Shown: positions 1,621 through 30,946 of the stretch, in pieces
Layout: each line of letters opens with the position of its first letter
Position numbering within the stretch: the first letter of the stretch is position 1
IMG/VR virus record: IMGVR_UViG_3300030106_004662
Span: 1-30,946 of that record
Direction: 5' to 3' (one strand)
Length of the DNA stretch: 30,946 nucleotides
Source of the DNA: a virus
Notes under the pieces: model-generated
Databases searched by the model: none
Told to the model about the DNA's origin: nothing
What the model saw: only the letters and a program-made list of their open reading frames with translations
Program-made: the position numbers and the translations under genes

Positions 1621-4600
1621 ATGTTAATACAGACTAATTTTATTGCGGGTAAAATGAATAAAAGCGTGGACGAACGTCTTGTTCCTCCAGGCGAATATGT
1701 AGACGCTTTAAATGTAAGACTTGGTTCTACTGAAACCACTGAGATTGGGGCGGTAGAAAATTCAAGAGGAAATACACGTCTTACAACTTTAATGTATAGA
1801 AATTTACCTTTATCAGGTGTTGCTCGATGTATAGGAGCTTACGAAGATGGAATGAGAGAAACTATTTATTGGTTTGTTCATGATGAATCTAACCCAGCAT
1901 CATCTTCAGGAAAGGTAGATTTAATTGTATCTTTTGAAACAAATACAAATACTTTAACGTATCACGTTCAAAGTGAAACTGTTTTAAATTTTGATCCTAA
2001 ATTTTTAATAACAGGAGTAGATAAAATTGGAAACTTTCTTTATTTTACTGACGATTTAAATCCTCCTCGTTTTATAGATGTAACAGGCCAAGATGGAGTG
2101 GCTTATCCAAGTGACGCTCCAGGTACCTTAAATCCTTTGGAAGAAGAAGATTTAAATGTAATTGTTCAAATACCTGGATTTGAAGATCCTACCGCTACCA
2201 CTATTCCATTAGGAGCCCCTCACTTAGACTTTCCCCCAGACAATCAGTCAGATGAAGATTATATGGAAAATAGATTTTTATGTTTTGCATATAGGTATAG
2301 ATATTTTAATGAAGGGTATAGTGCAACGTCTTTATTTACTAAACCGGCTTTTCTTCCTCGAGAGTTTAATTTTAGTTTAGAAAATTTTCTTAACGATGGA
2401 ATGGTTAATAGTCGTAATAGGGTAAATGTAACCTTTTCAACAGGAGACAGAAGGGTAAAAGAAATTCAGCTTTTAGTAAAAGAAACTACGAGTAATAATA
2501 TATTTTTAGTAGAAAGAATAAATAAGTCGGACCAAGGTATTTCTGATGACACATTTATAACCCGACAATTTTGTAACAAAAAAGTTTTAACAGTTATTGG
2601 TAGTGATGAATTATTAAGACTTTACGATAATGTTCCTCGTTTAGCAAAAGCTCAAACCATACAAGGTAATCGTTTAATGTATGGAAATTATGTAGACCAA
2701 TACAATATAGAAAGAGGTCTTCTTGACGGATCAGGAAATCTTCAACCTGGAGGACAGGTTATTCCTACTCAATATACTTTACATGGTATTTCTAATGAAT
2801 TAGGAAATCAAGAGTTGGATCCTGCGTCAACTATAAGCTCCAGCTCTGGGGTTATTGATATAGGAGGTGGAGCAACTACTATTGTTGATAATCAAATAAC
2901 TATAGATTTATCCAGCTTACCCTCTCCTATCCCGCCAGGACTTTCACTTTCTTTTCAATTTGCAGTTCAAAATGTAATGCAAACCAACAACGCTGGTCCT
3001 GATGTGGTTGCCACATTGATTCCTGATTTTAATCTTACTTGGATTTTTACAACTCCGGTTTCGTATCCTACTCCGGTTGATTTAATAAACTCTTCAGAGT
3101 TTCAAGCGGCTGTAGGAACTTCGGCTAACATGGCTGTTTTATTGCCACCTACAAACCCTCCTGTTATACAAAACGGAACAACGCTAACAGATTATTTTAA
3201 TAACGCTATTTATTACGCGCTACAATCAACTAATGGAAATACTTTACAGTTGTTAAACACTTCTATAAACGGGTCTTGCCCAGCCATACCTTTGGCTACT
3301 TTTCCTCCGGTAGGATCTATATGTGTTCAAGAGCCAATAGGGTTTACCGCTTTAGGTAATTCGTTTAGATTACAACTACCAGGAGCTCAATTTTATTTTG
3401 ATACTGATTCTGCTAATCCAGGACAACCGGGTAATTTTAGTAATCAGTTTAATTATTTTTCATTTAACCCTGCTACATCAGCGGTAGCTGTTTCAGAAAT
3501 TTCAGAAAACAGCAGTCTTCATAGTAATAGAGATTATGAAGTAGGTGTTGTTTACATGGATAAATTTGGTAGGTCTTCTACCGTTTTAACTTCTGAATTT
3601 AATACCGTGTACTTTAGCTCTCAGTTTATGCAAAATAAAAATCAAATACAGGTAACTATTCCTTCAGATGTTCCTGCTCCTTGGTGGGCTGAAAAATATA
3701 AGTTTGTTGTAAAACCAACTGAAGGGGCTTATAATATTATCTATTCTAACTTAAACTATCAACAAACTGGTATTGGTTCAACGGGTCCAGAACCGTTTAT
3801 ATCAGACTTAGCCAGCTTTTGGTTTAGATTAGAAGGAGATTCTCAAAATGTAGCTCAAGTGGGACAAAAACTTCGTGTAAAAATGGATGCTCAGGGAGCT
3901 ACAGGGGTAACAGCTTTATGTGAAGTGTTAGACAAAAAGGCTCTGTATTCAGATCAAATTTCAAGTGGTTCTCAGCCAGGGCTATACATAAGGTTAAAAC
4001 CATCTAACTGGACAGCTATAAACCCAAATGTTAGGACGGATATAAATTGTAAAAAAAGTGGAACTAATGATGATAAAGGCTGTAGTGGGGGTCATAATAA
4101 TGTAACCCTTTCTTGTGGTGTAAATGATGGGGGTGTGGCGGCTACTATACCAGCTGGTTCTGTGGTTAAAATATCTATAGATAATAGAAGAGAACATAAA
4201 AACAGCCTTTGTTCGGGCAAAAGAATGAAGTTTACAAAATCAATAATTGCCACTCAAGACTATGCTAATATTCACGCTATGCTTGTAGGAGAGCAATTAC
4301 AAAACTCTATGACTACTGCAAATGCAGAAATAGCAGACGCCACTTCTATTTCGTTTGATCCCACATTAGTTTTTACAAACACCTCTACTTCTGGAGGAGC
4401 ACCTGGCATTAGTTGTTTTGCAACTAAGTGTTGGGTTTATGAAAACGGAGCGGGCGAACAGTTTTTTATGATGAACTCTGGTATGCCTCGTTGTGGTTGG
4501 GCGAAAAAAAGAAAGGCTAAAAGCAATCTTAGAGTACAAATATCTTTTTCAGACGGGCTGTTTGTTTTTGAAACAGAACCTTCAGAAACTGATCCAAATT

Positions 4601-6570
4601 TATTTTATGACGCCTCTCAGTTATTAGATATAGAAACTGACCCTTCCGGTTTTAAAGTTCACTCCGCAGCAACTAAATACAATAGTTCTACTAACGCTTC
4701 AGGCATAGTAACCGGTTGTGAAGATGCTAATGGAGACCCTATACCTTGTAGTGATCAAGTTTTAGGGACTACCCCAATGATAACAACTATTGACTTTGCT
4801 AATTGTTATGTTTTTGGTAATGGGGTGGAAAGTTTTAGAATACAAGACCGTATTGACGGAAAAAGTTTTGAGTTAGGACAAAGAAAGTTAGCCGTATCGA
4901 ATCAAGATTTTAAAGAAGCAGATAGGTTTGCAGGAATAACATATAGCGGAGTATTTAGTGATTCGGCTAATTCAAATAATTTAAATGAGTTTAATTTAGG
5001 TTTAGCTAACTTTAAAGACTTAGAAACTCGCTTTGGACCAATTATGATTTTACACTCTCGTGAAACAGATATATTATGTTTACAAGAAGATAGAATATCT
5101 TATGTGTTGGCCAGCAAAAACGTAGTTTCTGATTCTACTGGAGGAGGTGCTATTGTTTCTGTTCCAGAGGTGTTGGGAACTCAGATAGCCCGAATAGAAG
5201 AATATGGTATTAGTTTTAACCCTGAAAGTTTTGTTTCGTGGGGAGCTCAAATGTTTTTTACAGACACTAAAAGAGGGGTTGTTTTATCTTTACAAGGAGC
5301 GTCAGCTAATAGCGATCAACTAAAAACAATATCATCTTTTGGAATGCGTTCATATTTTAGAGATGAATTTAACGCAGCCCTTACCACTCAAAAATTAGGA
5401 GGGTATGATCCATACATGAATGAATATGTATTGAGTAGTAATGACAGAGCTGTTCCGGTTCCTGTACCAGAAGTTCCTTGTGGTCAATTACTTACACAAG
5501 TTAATACCACTCAAGATTTAATATATGATGTTAACTTGGGGGCGGTAATAGGACAGGTAGATGTGCCTTACACTATATCTTCAGGAACAATCAATATCAG
5601 TATAGTTTGGAATGGCATAACTTATACTTCCGGAAATGTTTCTACCAGTGGTAGTTTTAGTTTTAACAAAACATCTGCAACTCCTGACACAGCAAGTGTA
5701 ACTATAACTCCGGTTAGTTCGTCAGCTTCTTATAATGTAACAGTAGAGTGTCCACCTCAAATACCTTTAACTGTTATCAAGGTGGTTGTTAATACCCCTA
5801 ATTATGATCAAGAGTCTATACATATATTTTATAAATGGAACGATGGAAACACTTTTAGCCCAACACAAACTGACCCTATAAATTTAAATGTAAATGTTCC
5901 AACTTCTCATTATTCTCAAGCTATAGGAGTTAGGTCGGTAGGAATGTTCCCTTATGACGGAACAAATATAACTTTAGGTACAAATAAATTAGCGGGAGAC
6001 ACTTTCGATTTTGACCCAAATCTACATAGGTTTAAAATGCTTTCAAGCAATACTGAATTTCAAAACACCCCAGTAGATATAGCGTTATTACTAACAACAG
6101 CTACTGACGTTACGCCTATTTTAAATCAACCTGGTATTCAAGATTTTCAAGCTACAAATTTAAACTTTACTATGAATATAGGTAATCAGTACTTATATTT
6201 GGTTTGGGACTTTAGAGATATTATAGAAAATGAATTGTGTTATGAGCCACCTTCAAGCACTATTGAGGCTGTGTGTTGTGAGTGTGAAGGAAATTGTCAG
6301 CAAATTTACTTTAGCCCAGGACAAGGAACTCAATCAGCTGCTTGTCAAGTAGATACAAACACATTTGGAAATAATCAGTATTCATTTAATGGATCAAATG
6401 CGATTCCTGTATTAGGAGACCAATGTTTTGCAAATTTAAGTTGCGATCCTCAGTCTACAGTAGATGCAGGATTTTATATAGTAGACGCTGCTCAACCAGC
6501 TGCTACTAACCCTAAAAACTGGATAGAGTTAGATGCTCAGGGATTTGTTATTGACTCAGGAACATGTTAA
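1621..6570 (+). CDS. Large tail nozzle / DNA-stabilisation-like virion protein
   Basis: This 1649-residue protein starts with GKMNKSVDERLVPPGEYVDALNVRL...IGAVENSRGNT, which I recognise as the beginning of packaged-DNA stabilisation or tail nozzle proteins (P22 gp10-like; called stabilization protein in crAss-like phages). It is two to three times longer than P22 gp10 or T7 gp12. The extra length includes long beta-rich inserts, a probable Ig-like segment at about residues 1285-1385 (CGQLL...VNTTQDLIYDV to SASYNVTVECP), and a Cys-rich C-terminal module (CCECEGNC, CQVDTNTF, NLSC, ending IDSGTC). The C-terminal module resembles the N-terminus of the next protein. It probably sits at the tail end, with distal modules exposed to the host. 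No membrane segment or signal peptide is seen. Confidence 0.65.
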   Translation: MLIQTNFIAGKMNKSVDERLVPPGEYVDALNVRLGSTETTEIGAVENSRGNTRLTTLMYRNLPLSGVARCIGAYEDGMRETIYWFVHDESNPASSSGKVDLIVSFETNTNTLTYHVQSETVLNFDPKFLITGVDKIGNFLYFTDDLNPPRFIDVTGQDGVAYPSDAPGTLNPLEEEDLNVIVQIPGFEDPTATTIPLGAPHLDFPPDNQSDEDYMENRFLCFAYRYRYFNEGYSATSLFTKPAFLPREFNFSLENFLNDGMVNSRNRVNVTFSTGDRRVKEIQLLVKETTSNNIFLVERINKSDQGISDDTFITRQFCNKKVLTVIGSDELLRLYDNVPRLAKAQTIQGNRLMYGNYVDQYNIERGLLDGSGNLQPGGQVIPTQYTLHGISNELGNQELDPASTISSSSGVIDIGGGATTIVDNQITIDLSSLPSPIPPGLSLSFQFAVQNVMQTNNAGPDVVATLIPDFNLTWIFTTPVSYPTPVDLINSSEFQAAVGTSANMAVLLPPTNPPVIQNGTTLTDYFNNAIYYALQSTNGNTLQLLNTSINGSCPAIPLATFPPVGSICVQEPIGFTALGNSFRLQLPGAQFYFDTDSANPGQPGNFSNQFNYFSFNPATSAVAVSEISENSSLHSNRDYEVGVVYMDKFGRSSTVLTSEFNTVYFSSQFMQNKNQIQVTIPSDVPAPWWAEKYKFVVKPTEGAYNIIYSNLNYQQTGIGSTGPEPFISDLASFWFRLEGDSQNVAQVGQKLRVKMDAQGATGVTALCEVLDKKALYSDQISSGSQPGLYIRLKPSNWTAINPNVRTDINCKKSGTNDDKGCSGGHNNVTLSCGVNDGGVAATIPAGSVVKISIDNRREHKNSLCSGKRMKFTKSIIATQDYANIHAMLVGEQLQNSMTTANAEIADATSISFDPTLVFTNTSTSGGAPGISCFATKCWVYENGAGEQFFMMNSGMPRCGWAKKRKAKSNLRVQISFSDGLFVFETEPSETDPNLFYDASQLLDIETDPSGFKVHSAATKYNSSTNASGIVTGCEDANGDPIPCSDQVLGTTPMITTIDFANCYVFGNGVESFRIQDRIDGKSFELGQRKLAVSNQDFKEADRFAGITYSGVFSDSANSNNLNEFNLGLANFKDLETRFGPIMILHSRETDILCLQEDRISYVLASKNVVSDSTGGGAIVSVPEVLGTQIARIEEYGISFNPESFVSWGAQMFFTDTKRGVVLSLQGASANSDQLKTISSFGMRSYFRDEFNAALTTQKLGGYDPYMNEYVLSSNDRAVPVPVPEVPCGQLLTQVNTTQDLIYDVNLGAVIGQVDVPYTISSGTINISIVWNGITYTSGNVSTSGSFSFNKTSATPDTASVTITPVSSSASYNVTVECPPQIPLTVIKVVVNTPNYDQESIHIFYKWNDGNTFSPTQTDPINLNVNVPTSHYSQAIGVRSVGMFPYDGTNITLGTNKLAGDTFDFDPNLHRFKMLSSNTEFQNTPVDIALLLTTATDVTPILNQPGIQDFQATNLNFTMNIGNQYLYLVWDFRDIIENELCYEPPSSTIEAVCCECEGNCQQIYFSPGQGTQSAACQVDTNTFGNNQYSFNGSNAIPVLGDQCFANLSCDPQSTVDAGFYIVDAAQPAATNPKNWIELDAQGFVIDSGTC

Positions 6571-6589: not shown

Positions 6590-8020
6590 ATGCCACTACA
6601 ACCTTTTTTTTATGACGGATTAACATTTGCTTCAGCAGGCAATGTATATACAGATTCTAATTTAACCACTCAAGCTCCTGATGGATTCTATTCTTTAGGA
6701 GGAATAGTTAGAGTAAAAACAGGAGGGGTTTTAGGACCACCTCAAAACTGTCCTTCTTGTGCAGTACCTTGCGGTACAGATGGTTTTGCAGCAGAAGGTG
6801 AAACAGGTATTTTTACGGTAGATTTTGAATTAGGAAACACTCCAGGAGCAGCTATAATTACGTTTAGCCCAGGAAAAGATAATGATACTTGTGTTCCTAT
6901 ACCTGATAAATGCACATGGTCTTACAATGGGGTTACAGCATCCGAATACAGTTCTTTACTCGGAGGGTATCAAACAGGATTAATAGGAACGCCAGATGGC
7001 CCGCCTAAAGGAGGTACTCAGTGTAATGCTTGTTCGGCTACAGGAGTAAATGTTGATCCTGCTACCGGCATAAACCCTCCTCTTACTATTGCTGGATTTG
7101 CTTATAATAATGGTACAGGAAATTTTGATCCTGTTGGAAACATAACAACTCCTGGTATAACTGGAGTTAATAATTTTGCTCCCGACCCTCAACCAGGTAG
7201 CACTTTATTAGACTGGAATTTTACCAATCAAGGATTACTTATTAATGGGTTAGGGTCTAATAATTGCGGTAGTACAACAGGAATAGGTATCCCTTTAGGT
7301 TTTGATGGGGTCAGTCCGGCTGCACCTAATTTACCAACAACAAACTGGCCAGCTTCAGGAATGGAATATAGAGGAGCTACTATGGTTGTTCCTTCTCCAC
7401 CTGGCGTAACAAGTACTATTTTATCTATTGAAGTTGTAGCTCCTTGTTCAAACACTTGGTGGGGAATAACAGTAGAGTGTCCAAGGTCTTTAACAGGAAT
7501 AGACTCTTCTACAGCAGAACCTCAAGGGACTGCAACAGCTACAGTGTGCACTAAAGATATAACTACCACTTTATTTCACGTTCCCGTAGACGCTTTTGGA
7601 AACTCCAACACTTGTTCTAATTACTTTCAAGTTGGCAATGAATTTCCTGCCAGCCCTGCTTCTGGTCAACCAAATGGAGTTTTAGGCTTACATGATTGGG
7701 TTTTTATGGATGAGTTTGGACAAACACCTGCTCCAGTTGGAGAGTATAAGTGTCGTTTTGATGCTCAAGACGGTCTTGGTGTAAGAAATTGGCATGTATC
7801 AGTTGGTGTTAGAGAGTATAGAGATACTGCAAATAATGGTAATTATCCAGGGTGTGCACCAATTAATTCACCTGCAACACAGCCACCAACAACAGGTAAC
7901 GCAATTAAAATGTTACCTCCGGAAGGTTATGGTGGTTCTTATAATGGAGTGTTGGGAACTTCGCAAACCAGTGGGCCTTATGTTCCTGGAATAGTTAGAT
8001 CAATAATACCATGTCCTTAA
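6590..8020 (+). CDS. Cys- and Gly-rich tail fibre or receptor-binding-like protein
   Basis: I choose the ATG at 6590 (476 residues). It follows AAATATT, the start context used by neighbouring genes, and lies clear of the upstream stop at 6570; an in-frame ATG at 6533 would overlap the previous gene. The protein is rich in Gly, Pro, Thr and Asn and almost lacks Lys. The N-terminus has NVYTDSNLTTQAPDGFY, a module I associate with surface-exposed phage fibre proteins of Bacteroidota phages. Cys pairs occur at CPSCAVPC and CNAC. The composition suggests an extended beta-rich adhesin. The position after the nozzle and before the ejection proteins fits a receptor-binding role, but this is inference. 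Confidence 0.55.
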   Translation: MPLQPFFYDGLTFASAGNVYTDSNLTTQAPDGFYSLGGIVRVKTGGVLGPPQNCPSCAVPCGTDGFAAEGETGIFTVDFELGNTPGAAIITFSPGKDNDTCVPIPDKCTWSYNGVTASEYSSLLGGYQTGLIGTPDGPPKGGTQCNACSATGVNVDPATGINPPLTIAGFAYNNGTGNFDPVGNITTPGITGVNNFAPDPQPGSTLLDWNFTNQGLLINGLGSNNCGSTTGIGIPLGFDGVSPAAPNLPTTNWPASGMEYRGATMVVPSPPGVTSTILSIEVVAPCSNTWWGITVECPRSLTGIDSSTAEPQGTATATVCTKDITTTLFHVPVDAFGNSNTCSNYFQVGNEFPASPASGQPNGVLGLHDWVFMDEFGQTPAPVGEYKCRFDAQDGLGVRNWHVSVGVREYRDTANNGNYPGCAPINSPATQPPTTGNAIKMLPPEGYGGSYNGVLGTSQTSGPYVPGIVRSIIPCP

Positions 8021-25626: not shown

Positions 25627-25727
25627 GTTAAGATGTTAAGTTTAAAGTAAAAAATTATAGTAGAATAAAAAGACTGCTAAATTAAAATTTATTTTACAAA
25701 AAACAACAATAAAGTCAACATCTTAAC
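25627..25727. repeat. Inverted repeat GTTAAGATGTT / AACATCTTAAC
   Basis: GTTAAGATGTT at 25627-25637 and its perfect reverse complement at 25717-25727 are separated by 79 bases. The second copy overlaps the -35 element of the candidate primase promoter. The core GATGTT/AACATC also appears twice in the leader repeats, so one motif occurs four times in 165 bases. This fits paired operators for a dimeric regulator, or iterons. Confidence 0.7.
25691..25718 (-). promoter_or_regulatory. Candidate promoter of primase-helicase unit
   Basis: On the - strand TTGACT (25718-25713) and TAAAAT (25696-25691) are 16 bases apart, close to the primary-sigma consensus. It lies just after the terminator behind the SSB-like gene. 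The leader to the primase ATG would be about 125 bases. It does not fit the Bacteroidota TTTG/TAnnTTTG form as well. Confidence 0.45.
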
Positions 25728-25738
25728 ACCAATAAGAC

Positions 25739-25794
25739 AAAAAAATAAGGAGGATACCCGTTCTTCTTTACTGCCCGGTCTAAAACCTCCTTAT
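25739..25794 (-). terminator. Terminator with SD/anti-SD stem after SSB-like gene
   Basis: On the - strand ATAAGGAGG (25794-25786) pairs perfectly with CCTCCTTAT (25753-25745) around a 32-base loop, followed by a run of seven T. It begins about 14 bases after the SSB-like stop codon and closes the recombination unit. Confidence 0.75.
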
Positions 25795-25807
25795 CTTTTC
25801 TACCAGT

Positions 25808-26068
25808 TTAGAAAGGTAGATCTTCATCTACTGCCGGAGCAGTTTCTTTCTTTGGTTCCGGTTTAAATGTATCAATAGCAACATAATGAGTTTTACCATA
25901 ATCATCAGCTCCATCTTTTTTAGCTGATACATTTACTTTAATGTATTTTTTACCATTATACTCAAACATGTGTTCTTGAGGTAAGTCTGATAAACAAATA
26001 CTACAGGAAATCATATTCCCATCAAATTTGGAAGTTCCACTTCCGACATAGATTTTTTCTTCTGCCAT
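25808..26068 (-). CDS. Small SSB-like protein with acidic DEDLPF tail
   Basis: This 86-residue protein ends in VDEDLPF. That is the acidic-Leu-Pro-Phe tip by which bacterial SSB proteins recruit replication and repair partners. A Pro/Glu linker precedes it. The body is beta-rich (MFEYNGKKYIKVNVSAKK; KTHYVAIDTFKP) but shorter than a standard SSB OB fold; a C-x-x-C (CSIC, 22-25) is present. It is encoded next to the exonuclease and annealing protein, as phage SSBs often are. The start is AATTATG, three bases after the upstream gene. Single-stranded DNA binding is inferred from tail and context. Confidence 0.7.
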   Translation of the reverse strand: MAEEKIYVGSGTSKFDGNMISCSICLSDLPQEHMFEYNGKKYIKVNVSAKKDGADDYGKTHYVAIDTFKPEPKKETAPAVDEDLPF

Positions 26069-27922: not shown

Positions 27923-28218
27923 TATAATTTATTAGAGGCGTATTCTAATATTTTTTTATAATCCTCATCTTTATCAATAAGTTCTTTTGCTTTTTTATAT
28001 CCATGAATAATAGTGGAGTGAGAAACATTGTGTCCGCTCTCTTCCATAAATCTTTGGATGTAAGAAATTCGTATGGGGCGTTCCATACATAAATAATAAA
28101 GTATTTGTCTGGCATCTACACATTCTCTCTTTTTTGTTTTTTCAAACATTTGATCTAATGTTAGATGAAATTGTTCGGCAATAGCGTTAGCATAAACCAT
28201 AAATATTTCCCTTTTCAT
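27922..28218 (-). CDS. DnaA domain IV-like DNA-binding protein, first gene of unit
   Basis: The 98 residues match only the C-terminal DNA-binding domain of DnaA: VYANAIAEQFHLTLDQMF, KTKKRECVDARQILYYLCM (34-45 equivalent to the basic loop and following helix), then helix-turn-helix ISYIQRFMEESGHNVSHSTIIHGYKKA, where SHSTIIHG parallels DHTTVLHA. No ATPase domain is present. It is transcribed first from the promoter at 28351-28320, so it may regulate its own unit, mark the phage origin, or compete with host DnaA. These roles are inference. Confidence 0.8.
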   Translation of the reverse strand: MKREIFMVYANAIAEQFHLTLDQMFEKTKKRECVDARQILYYLCMERPIRISYIQRFMEESGHNVSHSTIIHGYKKAKELIDKDEDYKKILEYASNKL

Positions 28219-28248
28219 AGTTGATTTTTATTAAATTAAATTATTAAA

Positions 28249-28313
28249 AATTAGTGTGTAGTTTCTCGGATACTCTTCACATACATAGTTTGCTTTCAGG
28301 TATCTCACTAATT
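28249..28313 (-). promoter_or_regulatory. 5' leader hairpin of the DnaA-like unit
   Basis: AATTAGTG (28249-28256) pairs perfectly with CACTAATT (28306-28313). Inside, GATAC (28270-28274) pairs with GTATC (28300-28304). The outer arm begins about seven bases after the -7 element, so the hairpin would form the very 5' end of the mRNA. It overlaps the palindrome ACTAATTAGT. Confidence 0.55.
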
Positions 28314-28319
28314 AGTCGG

Positions 28320-28351
28320 CTAAGATAATTCTTTTTCAATACTTAACCAAA
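28320..28351 (-). promoter_or_regulatory. Promoter of the DnaA-like / recombination unit
   Basis: On the - strand TTTG (28351-28348), a 20-base spacer and TATCTTAG (28327-28320) match the Bacteroidota promoter TTTG-N19-21-TAnnTTTG with one mismatch. It lies between the upstream terminator and the DnaA-like gene. Confidence 0.6.
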
Positions 28352-28377
28352 TTTTGTTTATGTTTTTTTTATTTCTT

Positions 28378-28461
28378 AAAAAAATAAGAGTTTCACCCAT
28401 AGAATAAACCAATGCATTGTTTCGGTTAATTTATTCACTTGGGATCTGTTATCTCTTATTT
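28378..28461 (-). terminator. Terminator with long structured loop after Nmad1-like gene
   Basis: AAATAAGAG and CTCTTATTT (28453-28461 with 28382-28390) form a nine-base stem followed by seven T on the - strand. The 62-base loop folds further: CCCA/TGGG (28396-28399 with 28440-28443) and GAATAAA/TTTATTC (28402-28408 with 28430-28436). The apex holds the palindrome CAATGCATTG (28410-28419). Confidence 0.75.
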
Positions 28462-28468
28462 CTTATTT

Positions 28469-28750
28469 TTATTTTTGTTCTTTTTTACACTGGACTTTAT
28501 ATAAAATTAAATACCCAATTAAATCTAAAATTGTGTCTTCAGTTTTATCATTTATTCCAGTGTTCTTGATCCTACTTAACTTATCATCTATTCGAGCAAG
28601 TATCCCTTCTTTTGGAGAAAGTTTAGAAAATATTTTTGGAGGATCATTTGCAGTGTCTCCGTAAGATTTGTTTTTCTCCAACAATAACATTATTACTTCT
28701 CTTCCTACTTCTTTTATTAGTTCGGATGTTTCTTTACTTTTCTTTTCCAT
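28469..28750 (-). CDS. Nmad1 / DUF1599-like protein (MazG-type helical)
   Basis: This 93-residue, all-helical protein has the pattern LLEKNKSYGD, then EGILARIDDKLSRIKN, then DKTEDTILDLIGYLILYKVQ. That matches small phage proteins annotated as nucleotide modification associated domain 1 (DUF1599), which resemble all-alpha NTP pyrophosphatases; the ExxxD-type acidic residues (E61, D65 region) could bind metal. It may hydrolyse or process nucleotides for phage DNA synthesis or modification. No base-modification enzyme is seen in this window. It overlaps the upstream gene by 17 bases and is followed by a terminator. Confidence 0.65.
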   Translation of the reverse strand: MEKKSKETSELIKEVGREVIMLLLEKNKSYGDTANDPPKIFSKLSPKEGILARIDDKLSRIKNTGINDKTEDTILDLIGYLILYKVQCKKEQK

Positions 28751-28922
28751 GATATTTTTCTTTAAAATGTTTATGTTTGGCCTTTTTTGTTGAGTTGTAT
28801 AACTCTTTCATTTTTGTTTTAAAAGATTTATTCATTTCTTCTGTGTCTATTATTATATAACCACTTTCGTCTTCATAATAAAACACTGGCACAATAATAC
28901 TTTCTTTTTTAATTTTTTCCAT
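28734..28922 (-). CDS. Small hypothetical protein
   Basis: This 62-residue protein has a short beta start (ESIIVPVFYYEDESGYIIID) and a Lys-rich helical end (KAKHKHFKEKYHGKEK). It overlaps the genes on both sides by 14-17 bases, which supports it being translated. No family is recognised. Confidence 0.55.
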   Translation of the reverse strand: MEKIKKESIIVPVFYYEDESGYIIIDTEEMNKSFKTKMKELYNSTKKAKHKHFKEKYHGKEK

Positions 28923-29169
28923 CTTTATATTTTTTTAATTTATTAACTCCATCATAAGCAAGCCAGTCATCCATATTGATAAAGTTTTGTTTTTCTAATT
29001 CATCAAGATATTGTCTTTGTTTCATTTCACTTATTAAATGCCTAACACTATCTTGTTTATCTAATAATTGTTGTAAAAACTGAATATACTTTTTGTTAGG
29101 TTCTTTTTTGTTTTTTTCTTTTAATATAATTTCACTTATGTTTTTCATCATACATTTTTTTAATTTCAA
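28909..29169 (-). CDS. Small hypothetical helical protein
   Basis: This 86-residue, helical, Lys/Gln-rich protein contains KKYIQFLQQLLDKQDSVRHLISEMKQRQYLDELEKQNF. The first ATG overlaps the upstream gene by 38 bases; ATGs at 29151 and 29148 would shorten it by six or seven residues and are equally possible. No family is recognised. Confidence 0.55.
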   Translation of the reverse strand: MKLKKCMMKNISEIILKEKNKKEPNKKYIQFLQQLLDKQDSVRHLISEMKQRQYLDELEKQNFINMDDWLAYDGVNKLKKYKDGKN

Positions 29170-29353
29170 ATTCTATCGTAGCCCAACTAAAATCTTCTCG
29201 ATCTTTTAAATGCTCTTTCAAATACTCAATCCAGTCCCCTTCTTCTTCAAACACTTCTTCCAACATATCACATAGGTTATCATAAAACTGATTGCCATCA
29301 TTGTCTTCTAATTCGTTCATAAATTCTTCGTAAAGTTTTTTTGTTAATTCCAT
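29132..29353 (-). CDS. Small very acidic protein
   Basis: This 73-residue protein is rich in Glu and Asp in its first two thirds (YEEFMNELEDNDGN; CDMLEEVFEEEGDW). It is the first gene after the 29375-29485 RNA element, with only about 20 bases between the T run and its ATG. The acidic helical character is compatible with a DNA-mimic or inhibitor role, but that is speculation; the family is not recognised. Confidence 0.55.
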   Translation of the reverse strand: MELTKKLYEEFMNELEDNDGNQFYDNLCDMLEEVFEEEGDWIEYLKEHLKDREDFSWATIEFEIKKMYDEKHK

Positions 29354-29374
29354 TTTATTTTGTTTTTAGTTATT

Positions 29375-29424
29375 AAAAAAAATAAGGCAAGAGTTTGGTA
29401 TCGCAAATGATTTTCTCTCTTATT
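29375..29424 (-). terminator. Terminator hairpin with complementary loop
   Basis: AATAAG plus AGAG (29381-29386 and 29390-29393) pair with CTCTCTTATT (29415-29424), with a three-base bulge. Eight T follow on the - strand. The 21-base loop contains, on the - strand, GCGATA (29404-29399), complementary to the loop of the adjacent hairpin. Confidence 0.65.
29377..29407 (-). promoter_or_regulatory. Possible promoter embedded in the terminator
   Basis: On the - strand TTTG (29407-29404), a 19-base spacer and TATTTTTT (29384-29377) match TTTG-N19-TAnnTTTG with one mismatch. The ATG of the acidic gene is 24 bases downstream. The -7 element is the terminator's own T run. Confidence 0.3.
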
Positions 29425-29485
29425 AAGTGTGTTTGAGGGCGATATATCTGATTACTGCCATTAACCTCAACCAGTACACACCTTA
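29425..29485 (-). ncRNA. Imperfect hairpin, part of predicted kissing-loop RNA
   Basis: TTGAGG (29433-29438) pairs with CCTCAA (29465-29470), GTGTGT (29427-29432) with ACACAC (29476-29481), and the outer AA/TT pairs follow after a one-base bulge. There is a five-base bulge at 29471-29475. The 26-base loop carries TATCGC (- strand, 29444-29439). It abuts the terminator hairpin directly. Confidence 0.5.
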
Positions 29486-29489
29486 TATA

Positions 29490-29708
29490 TTATTCATCTC
29501 TCATATCTTCTAAATAGTTTTCTCTTTGTATGGCTTCATATTCATAGTCCTCAATTATCTCACAATAATCTCCACAAGCTATACATACTATTCTTTCCTC
29601 ACAATTTTCATCTTCTATTTCTTCAATTTCATCTCCACAACAAGAGCTTACCATACTATATCCCCCATCATCAATGGGATTACTTAATTTCCAGTTATCG
29701 TAGTTCAT
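29490..29708 (-). CDS. Small zinc-ribbon-like acidic protein
   Basis: I take the ATG at 29708 (72 residues), which follows AAATAAATA with A at -3. An ATG at 29732 is also in frame and would overlap the upstream gene by 14 bases. Two Cys pairs, SSCCGDE and CIACGDYC, separated by an acidic segment, suggest a zinc ribbon of the kind seen in many small phage proteins. The rest is strongly acidic (EDYEYEAIQRENYLEDMRDE). Function unknown; it is the last gene before the kissing-hairpin element. Confidence 0.6.
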   Translation of the reverse strand: MNYDNWKLSNPIDDGGYSMVSSCCGDEIEEIEDENCEERIVCIACGDYCEIIEDYEYEAIQRENYLEDMRDE

Positions 29709-29718
29709 ATTATTTATT

Positions 29719-29997
29719 TTATAAATGTCCACCTACATAACCATTTCCCTCTTCATCTTCCCCATACTCAAATCTCCATTCACTATCAACATCTTCATCC
29801 ATACCCCTATATTCATCAATACCACTTCCATACTCAAAATTTGTTTCACTTATGGCTTTGTCCATCTTGTCAATATACAAGTCTTCATTATCCGTTAAAT
29901 ATTCGTGTATATCATTACACTCCATTCCATCAGGTATGTCTATTTCTACTTCAGCGTATTTATGATAGACTGATCTTTGTATTATTTTTACTTTCAT
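29719..29997 (-). CDS. Small acidic protein
   Basis: This 92-residue protein has an N-terminal strand pattern (KVKIIQRSVYHKYAEVEIDIP). Its middle and end are dominated by Asp, Glu, Gly and Tyr (IDEYRGMDEDVDSEW; YGEDEEGNGYVGG). No family is recognised. It lies between a zinc-ribbon gene and a YubB-like gene in a run of acidic early proteins. Confidence 0.55.
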   Translation of the reverse strand: MKVKIIQRSVYHKYAEVEIDIPDGMECNDIHEYLTDNEDLYIDKMDKAISETNFEYGSGIDEYRGMDEDVDSEWRFEYGEDEEGNGYVGGHL

Positions 29998-30002
29998 TTT
30001 TT

Positions 30003-30746
30003 TTAATTTTCAGTTTTATTAATATATTCTTTCGCCTCCTCTAATGTTTTTCCACAATATTCTTGTCCCCACTCTAAATAATATCCAGTTCCACTCTCAT
30101 AGTTTGGATGTTCATCCATAAGTTTTATTAAATTAAAATCCTTATATTCTACTGGATCATCCCAATTAGGATAATCATAATCAAAACCATGTATGTTTTC
30201 TCCATCTTCAAATTCGTATTCTCCACCCCACTCTTGTTCCTCTTGAAAACGATAAAATATGTTAGGAAAATCTTTTAATAACATATTTATAATATTATCT
30301 CCAATGGGACTCCACGCACTTTCAAATTTCAACTCTCCATACTCTCCTTTGTTTTCTAAATGGGGATATGTATTAATTTCTACTTCTAAATCACAATCTC
30401 CCCACTTTGTCCCCCAGTTATTACAACTCCAGTCATACCAATTATTTGTTCCATATTTTTTAATAAGGTTATCACTCATCTCTTGTGTAATTGAACGATC
30501 TAAAAACAAATGTGTCCCCCCAATCTCTTTGTGTTCTTTTTCTTTTTCTTTATTTTTAATTTGTATCTCATTATATTCTTTTTGAGAAACAATACTGGCT
30601 GGACTTCTTGTCTCACTAATCTCTTTCGTTCTCGGAACATAATACTCACATATTGATCCTACTTTTTCTATCTTTTTTAATATCTCTTTCTGTTTTTTTG
30701 TAAGTGGAGTAGATATTGTTATCCCACTATAAACCCAATTCGGCAT
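30003..30746 (-). CDS. YubB/DUF1281-like ferredoxin-fold protein
   Basis: This 247-residue protein starts MPNWVYSGITIS, the characteristic beginning of the YubB/DUF1281 (Api92-like) family found on plasmids and phages. It then has a helical insert and a long Trp-, Tyr- and Glu-rich second half (NNWYDWSCNNWGTKWGDCDLEVE; ESAWSPIGDNIINMLL; FEDGENIHGFDYDYPNWDD). The W-G-T-K-W-x-x and A-W-S-P-P/I patterns also occur in that family. The biochemical function of the family is not established to my knowledge. The start is in AAAAATG context, no SD. Confidence 0.7.
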   Translation of the reverse strand: MPNWVYSGITISTPLTKKQKEILKKIEKVGSICEYYVPRTKEISETRSPASIVSQKEYNEIQIKNKEKEKEHKEIGGTHLFLDRSITQEMSDNLIKKYGTNNWYDWSCNNWGTKWGDCDLEVEINTYPHLENKGEYGELKFESAWSPIGDNIINMLLKDFPNIFYRFQEEQEWGGEYEFEDGENIHGFDYDYPNWDDPVEYKDFNLIKLMDEHPNYESGTGYYLEWGQEYCGKTLEEAKEYINKTEN

Positions 30747-30873
30747 TTTTATTTAATTTTAATTGATTAATAATTTGATCTAAATGTCTCATATACATAA
30801 AGTCTTGTTTGTGTAAAGGTTTGTTTAATTCCCTTTTTAAACATTCTCTATAAAATTCTATATCTTTTTTCAT
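30727..30873 (-). CDS. Very small ORF upstream of YubB-like gene
   Basis: This 48-residue frame, starting MKKDIEFYRECLKREL, is helical and basic. Its start overlaps the stop of the upstream frame (ATGA), and its end overlaps the YubB-like start by 20 bases. Such tight coupling supports translation, but the size leaves doubt. Confidence 0.4.
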   Translation of the reverse strand: MKKDIEFYRECLKRELNKPLHKQDFMYMRHLDQIINQLKLNKNAELGL

Positions 30874-30946
30874 ATCACTGGTATTGTTTGTAGTTCTGAA
30901 ATTGTAGTTTGTATTGATCCACCATCATTTCCCTCATCATCCATCA
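30870..30946 (-). CDS. 3' end of a further gene, truncated by the window
   Basis: The frame ending in TGA at 30872-30870 reads MDDEGNDGGSIQTTISELQTIPVI if it starts at the ATG at 30944. It may equally continue beyond the window. Its stop overlaps the next start. Too little is visible to identify it. Confidence 0.35.
   Translation of the reverse strand, partial: MDDEGNDGGSIQTTISELQTIPVI

Follow-up and report, generated by a model that had tools for sequence, protein, structure and literature searches.

The stretch of DNA analysed here (the window, 30,946 bases) corresponds to positions 1-30946 of a 59,605-base IMG/VR virus record. Its + strand carries structural genes, and its - strand carries replication genes together with small early-type genes. 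ARAGORN found no tRNA in the window, and megablast of positions 28000-30946 against annotated phages returned no match. Annotated phages whose primase is similar (31 records) have Flavobacterium, Polaribacter, Cellulophaga, Maribacter and Bacteroides as hosts where a host is given, and the host of the window phage is hence probably a Bacteroidota bacterium. The element under study lies on the - strand between two genes, one for a small cysteine-rich protein, zinc-ribbon-like as judged by eye from its cysteine pattern, and one for an acidic protein (Table 1).

The initial annotation read this gap as two abutting hairpins, the second a terminator, joined by a kissing contact between their loops. 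The parts of this description are present in the sequence: an imperfect hairpin on the - strand from about 29485 to 29425; a terminator-like hairpin in which AAUAAG (29424-29419) is able to pair with CUUAUU, with eight T at 29382-29375; the complementary hexamers UAUCGC (29444-29439) and GCGAUA (29404-29399); and the gene spacing, with the upstream stop codon at 29492-29490 and the next ATG at 29353. The layout itself is replaced by a three-way junction. It is closed by a helix that had passed unnoticed, P1 (29488-29481 with 29387-29380), which re-uses the strands previously given to the bases of both hairpins.

Table 1. Features of the window at and around the RNA element.
Feature	Position	Strand	Remarks
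Upstream gene, small cysteine-rich protein (MNYDNWKL...)	29490-29708	-	nine relatives; stop codon one base before P1
Whole RNA element, three-way junction and pseudoknot, including U-run	29375-29488	-	aligned region 29376-29491
P1 5' strand (AUAUAAGG)	29481-29488	-	pairs with 29387-29380
P2 5' strand (GUGU)	29476-29479	-	pairs with 29430-29427
P2 internal bulge and variable apical part	29431-29475	-	includes UUGAGG/CCUCAA and loop-1 hexamer UAUCGC (29444-29439)
Pseudoknot 5' strand (UGGU)	29470-29473	-	pairs with 29399-29396
P2 3' strand (ACAC)	29427-29430	-	pairs in A3
Junction ACUUAAUA	29421-29428	-	columns 64-70 invariant, column 71 at least 90% (18 copies); invariance partly built in, most of the string being required by the search patterns
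P3 5' strand (AAGAG)	29417-29421	-	pairs with 29393-29389
P4 mini-hairpin AUC-AUUUGC-GAU	29400-29411	-	AUC/GAU, GUC/GAC, ACC/GGU, AAC/GUU across copies
Pseudoknot 3' strand (ACCA)	29396-29399	-	pairs in A3
P3 3' strand (CUCUU)	29389-29393	-	pairs in A3
P1 3' strand (CCUUAUUU)	29380-29387	-	overlaps U-run start
U-run, eight T, intrinsic-terminator-like end	29375-29382	-	stem P1 directly 5'
Downstream gene, 73-aa acidic protein	29132-29353	-	no PHROG match

Homologues of the element

The upstream gene has nine relatives, and the element is found with five of them (L004, L005, L008, L009 and L010). The same gap holds a different RNA in L007 and is empty in L002, L003 and L006; in L003 both flanking genes are as in the window and the element is cleanly absent. 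To judge from these relatives, the gap after the upstream gene is a variable slot.

DNA patterns of the conserved core yielded further copies, one pattern scan adding none that passed the covariance model (CM) beyond those known. This model, R1, was built from 14 copies, which together with their duplicates score 83-100 bits by construction; the window copy, one of the 14, scores 96.7 bits. With R1 a divergent copy came to light in L223 (49.9 bits, E 1.8e-8), and the copies that the last pattern had given in L228/L242, L244 and L249 were confirmed (60-90 bits). The resulting alignment, A3, comprises 18 distinct copies from phage contigs, window included, and was produced with MAFFT without structure. 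It omits exact duplicates (L016-L019 and L027, equal to L014; L031, equal to L030; L242, equal to L228), loci re-fetched from the same records, borderline hits and the diverged first member of a tandem pair in L249 (38.4 bits). This tandem pair occupies about 7720-7881 and is joined by CCC-GUAA-GGG; its first member has P3 AAUAGC/GCUAUU and P4 GUC/GAC.

The pattern-led search required ACTTAATA, parts of the P3 5' strand and the P4 closing C-G with TTGCG, and single scans also required CCTTW or ACCM..CTYT, so that invariance at the required sites is partly built in. Pairs of outer P1, of P2 (columns 15-16/62-63) and of P4 (columns 81-82/91-92) were not prescribed by the patterns.

Several candidates were set aside. 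Two strict-pattern matches in bacterial genomes (L028 and L029) get no hit from the CM and were taken as chance, and the pattern hits L032, L034-L036, L058-L139 and 31 of the 36 of L225-L260 are without a CM match. Borderline matches in L224 (18.4 bits, E 0.09) and L057 (14.3 bits) were judged chance after viewing the alignments. One in L268 (20.4 bits, E 0.021) was taken as chance on score alone; the copy in L033 is itself matched on its reverse strand (27 bits, E 0.011), which was also attributed to chance.

Searching whole records with the CM gave 20 positives among 24 at E ≤ 1, with one match in 19 of them and, in the twentieth, one strong and one chance-level match. In a further whole-record search two of 50 were positive at E ≤ 0.1, clearly in one case and borderline in the other; another gave none in 27 records; and the last gave six of six, two of them already counted. 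The element occurs in the records of 7 of the best 80 primase relatives, many of them fragments, a patchy presence. Blastn of the element against annotated phages produced just three pieces at E=4. The CM was empty on MW202828, MT497071 and PP540027, a weak result in which the first look passed zero candidates, and cmsearch of 15-17 kb stretches of MW202828 and MT497071 was empty too.

Rfam 15 gave no match at E ≤ 5 on window positions 29300-29560 and none for the window at gathering. For ten related loci it returned one tRNA only at gathering, and for eight more, including L223, nothing at E ≤ 0.5. A direct search of the record for 6S-Flavo gave no match, the controls being likewise empty. 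The titles and abstract openings surveyed, a set that left subscription journals and preprints mostly outside its scope, contained no account of such an RNA.

Covariation and the shared fold

The fold shared by the 18 copies is a three-way junction closed by P1 (AUAAGG/CCUUAU), with P2, P3, the mini-hairpin P4 and a pseudoknot (UGGU/ACCA). Its helices were first drawn by hand on alignment A2; RNAalifold, run unconstrained on A3, yields the same nested junction of P1, P2, P3 and P4 with one extra pair (12-104). With the pseudoknot the structure comprises 24 pairs, of which 14 are changed on both sides, and 93.7% of the 429 cells in A3 are paired. The covariation score, 0.274, compares with 0.090 for shuffles and with a maximum of 0.084 after sliding the partners. 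None of 500 column shuffles reached the observed values, except for the number of pair types, one of five measures, which was reached by 2 of 500.

Because related sequences inflate double-change counts, we also used a tree-aware null, in which a custom script re-placed the changes of each column on a FastTree tree to give 150 simulated alignments. Our results show 14 double-changed pairs against a null mean of 7.3 (maximum 11), a summed covariation of 6.71 against 2.51 (maximum 4.36) and a paired fraction of 93.7% against 72.7% (maximum 81.6%), and none of the 150 simulations reaches the observed values. Single pairs in P1, the pseudoknot and P4 stand out among the 24, with expected null counts of 0.010, 0.009 and 0.017, and the pseudoknot pair 19-96 of A3 has the best score of the 24; two P2 pairs have an expected null count of 0.052 and the remaining pairs are not significant singly. 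A blind scan of all column pairs would leave none of the structure's pairs significant (chance expectation 2.3-4.4 for the best three of them), and the pair scoring highest in it, 18-50, lay outside the structure. The case hence rests on the structure as a whole. All five helices, pseudoknot included, show double changes and, on this comparison of copies, the element is a conserved, structured RNA with a three-way junction and a pseudoknot.

P1 shows changes on both sides in six of its eight pairs in A3, and the window copy forms seven of the eight. It reads UAAGG/CCUUA in most copies, AAUAGUAAGG/CCUUACUAUU in L030, AAAUAAAGG/CCUUUAUUU in L020, UAAUUUAUGGG/CCCAAAAAUUA with one mismatch in L244, and ACAAUGAUGGG/CCUAUCAUUGU in L223. 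For P2, two of four pairs are changed on both sides, and these double changes come from three sequences (L008, L020 and L223) that read GUUG/CAAC; its apical part varies widely in length and sequence and is partly absent in the shorter copies. P3 is paired in 97.8% of cells, its two double changes resting on one sequence each. The variants of P4 mostly surround the loop ANUUGC; L223 has lost the mini-hairpin, and L228 has it in altered form. The pseudoknot is paired in 90.3% of cells, with double changes in two of four pairs and the variants UGGU/ACCA, GGGU/ACCC and UGAU/AUCA; it is incomplete in L014, L030 and L033 (two of four pairs) and in L020 (three of four).

The proposal of a structured RNA with a long-range loop contact thus held in its general form, as such a contact is real and conserved, but the contact is UGGU/ACCA and not UAUCGC/GCGAUA. 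The hexamer alone pairs in 57.8% of A3 cells, one of them double-changed, and its individual pairs are broken in up to 11 of the 18 copies. Taken with the lower stem, the kissing model pairs 74.3% of cells and has one double-changed pair, and 389 of 500 column shuffles of the 18 aligned copies reach that pairing; the kissing pair lacks conservation, and its covariation does not exceed that of shuffles. GCGAUA consists of two P4 loop bases, the P4 3' strand and one pseudoknot base, and the loop-1 half falls within variable apical P2. Nor does the match go beyond chance in the window, a six-nucleotide complement occurring in 12.3% of 20,000 random pairs of 26 and 21 nt from the early region. The model was rejected by pair counts on both A2 and A3.

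Folding energy alone is not informative for this stretch. Compared with shuffled sequence, z is -0.18 for the 120-nt stretch and -0.22 for the terminator hairpin, neither of which folds better than the shuffles, and -1.17 for the first hairpin. For the window copy the minimum free energy is -19.3 kcal/mol, with -18.9 for the stem proposed earlier and -16.1 for the nested junction (pseudoknot energy excluded); by energy only, this copy slightly prefers the two-hairpin fold.

Gene context and the RNAs of early-gene slots

Gene context was examined for 15 copies, that is, all but L228, L244 and L249. The 5' end lies within about 3 nt of a stop codon in nine, and in 12 the distance from the 3' end to the next start codon is 12-29 nt. 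The latter does not hold for L014 (170 nt), L022 (76 nt) and L020, whose aligned copy stops at 7148, with a tRNA-Arg gene from 7155 onward. By eye, most of the 15 contexts have a different ORF next downstream, with one family common to L004 and L008 and another to L023 and L024. Since the downstream gene differs among copies, the suggestion that the element gates the acidic gene specifically finds no support. From its distribution, the element looks independent of neighbouring genes and more like a movable RNA gene than a pair of kissing hairpins.

Eleven of the 18 copies have five or more consecutive T at or after P1; seven do not (L014, L020, L030, L033, L223, L228 and L244), and in these P1 still pairs. 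The terminator-like end noted earlier is present as the U-run of the window copy, but it does not define the element. In the window phage, P1 and the U-run may terminate transcription.

The pattern TTTG-N20-TANNTTTG, the consensus form of Bacteroidota promoters, ends exactly 9 nt before the aligned start in L014, L023 and L024, which represent two unrelated loci; about 0.05 matches are expected from background in 18 x 160 nt. L228 has the same pattern 91 nt before the aligned start, and 14 of the 18 copies, window included, have none within 160 nt upstream. L023 and L024 show the layout promoter, RNA, U-run. Versions of their promoter are also found ahead of the same DnaA-like gene in six element-free relatives, so that the promoter is the neighbouring gene's and the element could equally be its leader. 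Hence only L014 may have a dedicated promoter.

The region from this conserved promoter to the DnaA-like gene forms a second slot. It is occupied by the element in L023 and L024 and by a different RNA family in the window (28246-28311), and is empty in L003, L004, L005, L008, L010 and L223. As slot contents differ among relatives, small structured RNAs come and go there like cassettes. The second RNA family, UUAGUG...CCGAGAAA...CACUAAUUUUU, is found on the - strand of the window at these positions, at 731-817 in L002 and at about 2722-2798 in L007, that is, in slot 2 in the window, in slot 1 in L007 and elsewhere in L002. Its inner stem co-varies by eye in the three sequences (GAUAC/GUAUC, GACAC/GUGUC and GACAA/UUGUC).

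Other gap RNAs were noticed. Two in the window are closed by terminators: 28378-28460 (-), AAUAAGAG...CUCUUAUUUUUUU, with CCCA/UGGG and GAAUAAA/UUUAUUC inside (by eye), and 25739-25794 (-), AUAAGGAGG...CCUCCUUAU followed by a U-run, with a 32-nt interior and similar DNA (72-98% identity) in three other records. Next to copies of the element lie a structured RNA directly 3' of that in L014 (2876-2950 (-), GAGAGUCGU...ACGACUCUCCUUUUU, ending in a U-run), a gap RNA directly 5' of that in L008 (about 2735-2840, AAAGGUAG...CUACCUUUAUUUUUU) and, in L228, a leader RNA closed by AAAGGGGG/CCCCCUUU between the TATATCTTTG promoter and the element (about 4557-4636); the L228 contig has a phage portal gene nearby.

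In L223, P1 of the element is also stem III of a hammerhead, with stem I AUACU/AGUAU, CUGAUGA, stem II, GAAA and, from the sequence, GUC at the cut site; Rfam at E ≤ 0.5 did not report this hammerhead. A scan for hammerhead cores in all fetched loci (1.72 Mb, including re-fetched overlaps) found 11 distinct cores, and the same scan in 3.4 Mb of sequence shuffled in 2-base blocks found none. They lie in L010 (257-316 and 763-833), L013 (9181-9270), L015, L021, L025 (two), L026 (two), L041 and L223. None is wholly inside an ORF of at least 40 aa, a short ORF apparently starting within one L010 core, and of the ten that have an ORF upstream, nine begin no more than 4 nt from where it ends. The two in L010 match the RAGATH-1 hammerhead (RF03152) below cut-off (27.1 and 26.6 against 56.3 bits). 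In L041 the slot matching that of L223, before the MPNYVY... gene, holds a hammerhead with a short stem III and no element. No hammerhead core was matched around the window element; among the copies, the sequence of L223 alone has one. Hammerhead-like hits at window 25643-25913, obtained with relaxed thresholds that give one hit in 1.2 Mb of shuffled sequence, start in coding sequence, have very long loops and were taken as chance. Outside the window, the same record has a hammerhead between two early genes (34865-34960 (-)). Its stem III carries a module of about 55 nt common to the reverse strand of L025 (about 757-851), the shared region having 96% identity over 105 nt in two phages.

Possible functions and related systems

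Usually one copy per record, a constant fold and changing neighbours make trans action most likely. Our preferred reading, at a probability of about 0.45, is that the element is a cassette-like phage noncoding RNA, usually present once per record, that acts in trans. The RNA would be about 85-115 nt long (about 114 in the window), its junction of P1, P2 and P3/P4 being held by a pseudoknot from the P2 bulge to the P3 internal loop, a fold that covariation supports. Some copies would be transcribed from a promoter immediately before them and the others within an early operon, and the 3' end of the RNA would be made right after P1. In the window P1 would act as an intrinsic terminator stem, as the U-run suggests; in L223 hammerhead cleavage would produce the end, to judge from the sequence; and in L020 tRNA 5' processing perhaps does so. 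The RNA would then accumulate as a discrete species and bind a host or phage protein or RNA, and the cassette would come and go in early-gene slots, where related phages hold hammerheads or at least one other RNA family. The small-RNA option, already mentioned in the initial annotation, is slightly favoured by the evidence. On the other hand, 12 of 15 copies lie 12-29 nt before a start codon, as a leader would, and the L023 and L024 copies fit a cis-acting leader equally well; 14 of 18 copies are without such a promoter, presence is patchy, and one record has a tandem pair. Against the conserved junction itself stands the computed stability of the two-hairpin fold in the window copy.

The promoter of L023 and L024, as it belongs to the slot, weakens the trans-RNA reading and strengthens the alternative of a cis-acting, riboswitch-like attenuator, which we nevertheless consider unlikely. 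Its conserved core would be an aptamer sharing P1 with the expression platform, so that a ligand stabilizing P1 would complete the terminator (window) or hammerhead stem III (L223) and lower the next gene. A conserved junction and loops with a variable but paired P1 are the usual look of an aptamer, and P1 in the window, AU-rich and closing a long loop, should depend on folding of the core. The T-run at or after P1 in 11 of 18 copies, the role of P1 as stem III in L223, the distance to the start codon and the position of the element between a gene and that gene's promoter in L023 and L024 would fit as well. However, the downstream ORFs are by eye not one family and one copy precedes a tRNA gene; six of the seven copies without a five-T run have no hammerhead in the scan either; there is usually one copy per record; and the window's alternative fold, with two hairpins, has a terminator at its end as well, hence providing no on/off pair. 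A wider version, which we hold to be a little less probable still, is that interchangeable RNA cassettes plug into end-making devices, the junction being the ligand-sensing domain of a new phage riboswitch class with swappable expression platforms, in which P1 drives a terminator or, in L223, a natural allosteric hammerhead.

There is a rather small chance that the element is an intercistronic 3'-end module, a stable fold right behind stop codons that would cap and protect the upstream early mRNA, in the same niche as the hammerheads, with the mRNA end made by termination, hammerhead cleavage or tRNA processing. This would agree with the nine of 15 copies that begin within about 3 nt of a stop codon, with the hammerheads, none of which lies wholly in an ORF of at least 40 aa and which in nine of ten cases start within 4 nt of the upstream ORF end, and with the supposed 3'-end routes, every one of which would end the RNA right after P1. 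Yet L014, L023, L024 and L228 follow a promoter and not directly a coding sequence, a general stabilizer should occur more often than the usual single copy per record, and a plain hairpin would suffice, leaving the conserved core unexplained.

Association with hammerheads has led others to new ribozyme classes, and the element shares genomes and intergenic slots with them; its aligned length of 86-116 nt, its pseudoknot and its many conserved core bases could also suit a new self-cleaving ribozyme, or a specific nuclease processing site. Such a role is very improbable: the L223 copy sits within a hammerhead that looks intact, so that a second cut would be redundant, P4 is missing from that copy and altered in L228, and we see no candidate catalytic site. 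We give slightly less room still to an ordinary intrinsic terminator with a meaningless conserved core, which the hairpin and eight T of the window copy would satisfy but not the double changes in five helices, the conserved unpaired core or the seven of 18 copies without a five-T run. Finally, the kissing-loop terminator, which has its complementary hexamers in the window in its favour, can practically be discarded, given shuffle-level covariation, a match expected by chance in 12.3% of pairs and a GCGAUA strand explained by P4 and the pseudoknot.

The phages concerned have early regions with hardly any annotation, and the element gives them a further RNA family, one in which five helices carry double changes. 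Early-gene gaps emerge as slots in which terminators, hammerhead ribozymes and structured RNA modules replace each other, in one case with the element nested within a hammerhead (L223). If trans-acting, the RNA would be a candidate for a role in host takeover or counter-defence; if it is a sensor, the hammerhead of L223 would be a natural one controlled allosterically.

Several known systems can be compared with it. Some riboswitches share P1 between aptamer and expression platform, and the element likewise has a P1 of variable sequence, a conserved junction core and a pseudoknot; unlike them, it has no consistent downstream gene and some copies are without a visible expression platform. The stable RNAs C and D of T4 are phage-encoded small RNAs, and the element lies once directly before a tRNA gene (L020), but those were seen as RNA whereas the element is a predicted RNA. 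RNase III sites between T7 early genes are imperfect hairpins, as in the window between early cistrons, whereas the element is a conserved three-way junction with a pseudoknot, and 4 of its 18 copies stand behind a promoter. The manA and wcaG motifs are described in PMC2864571 as orphan structured RNAs of aquatic phages with cyanobacterial hosts; the element is like them a conserved structured RNA of phages, but its host group is probably Bacteroidota, it has no Rfam match and its neighbour genes are mostly uncharacterized. Hammerhead ribozymes, which include the RAGATH-1 hammerhead (RF03152) and the phage hammerheads of PMC3088659, lie like the element between genes of the same phages. The window element differs from them in its fold and lacks the CUGANGA/GAAA core, and one of the 18 copies, that of L223, is joined to a hammerhead by forming its stem III.
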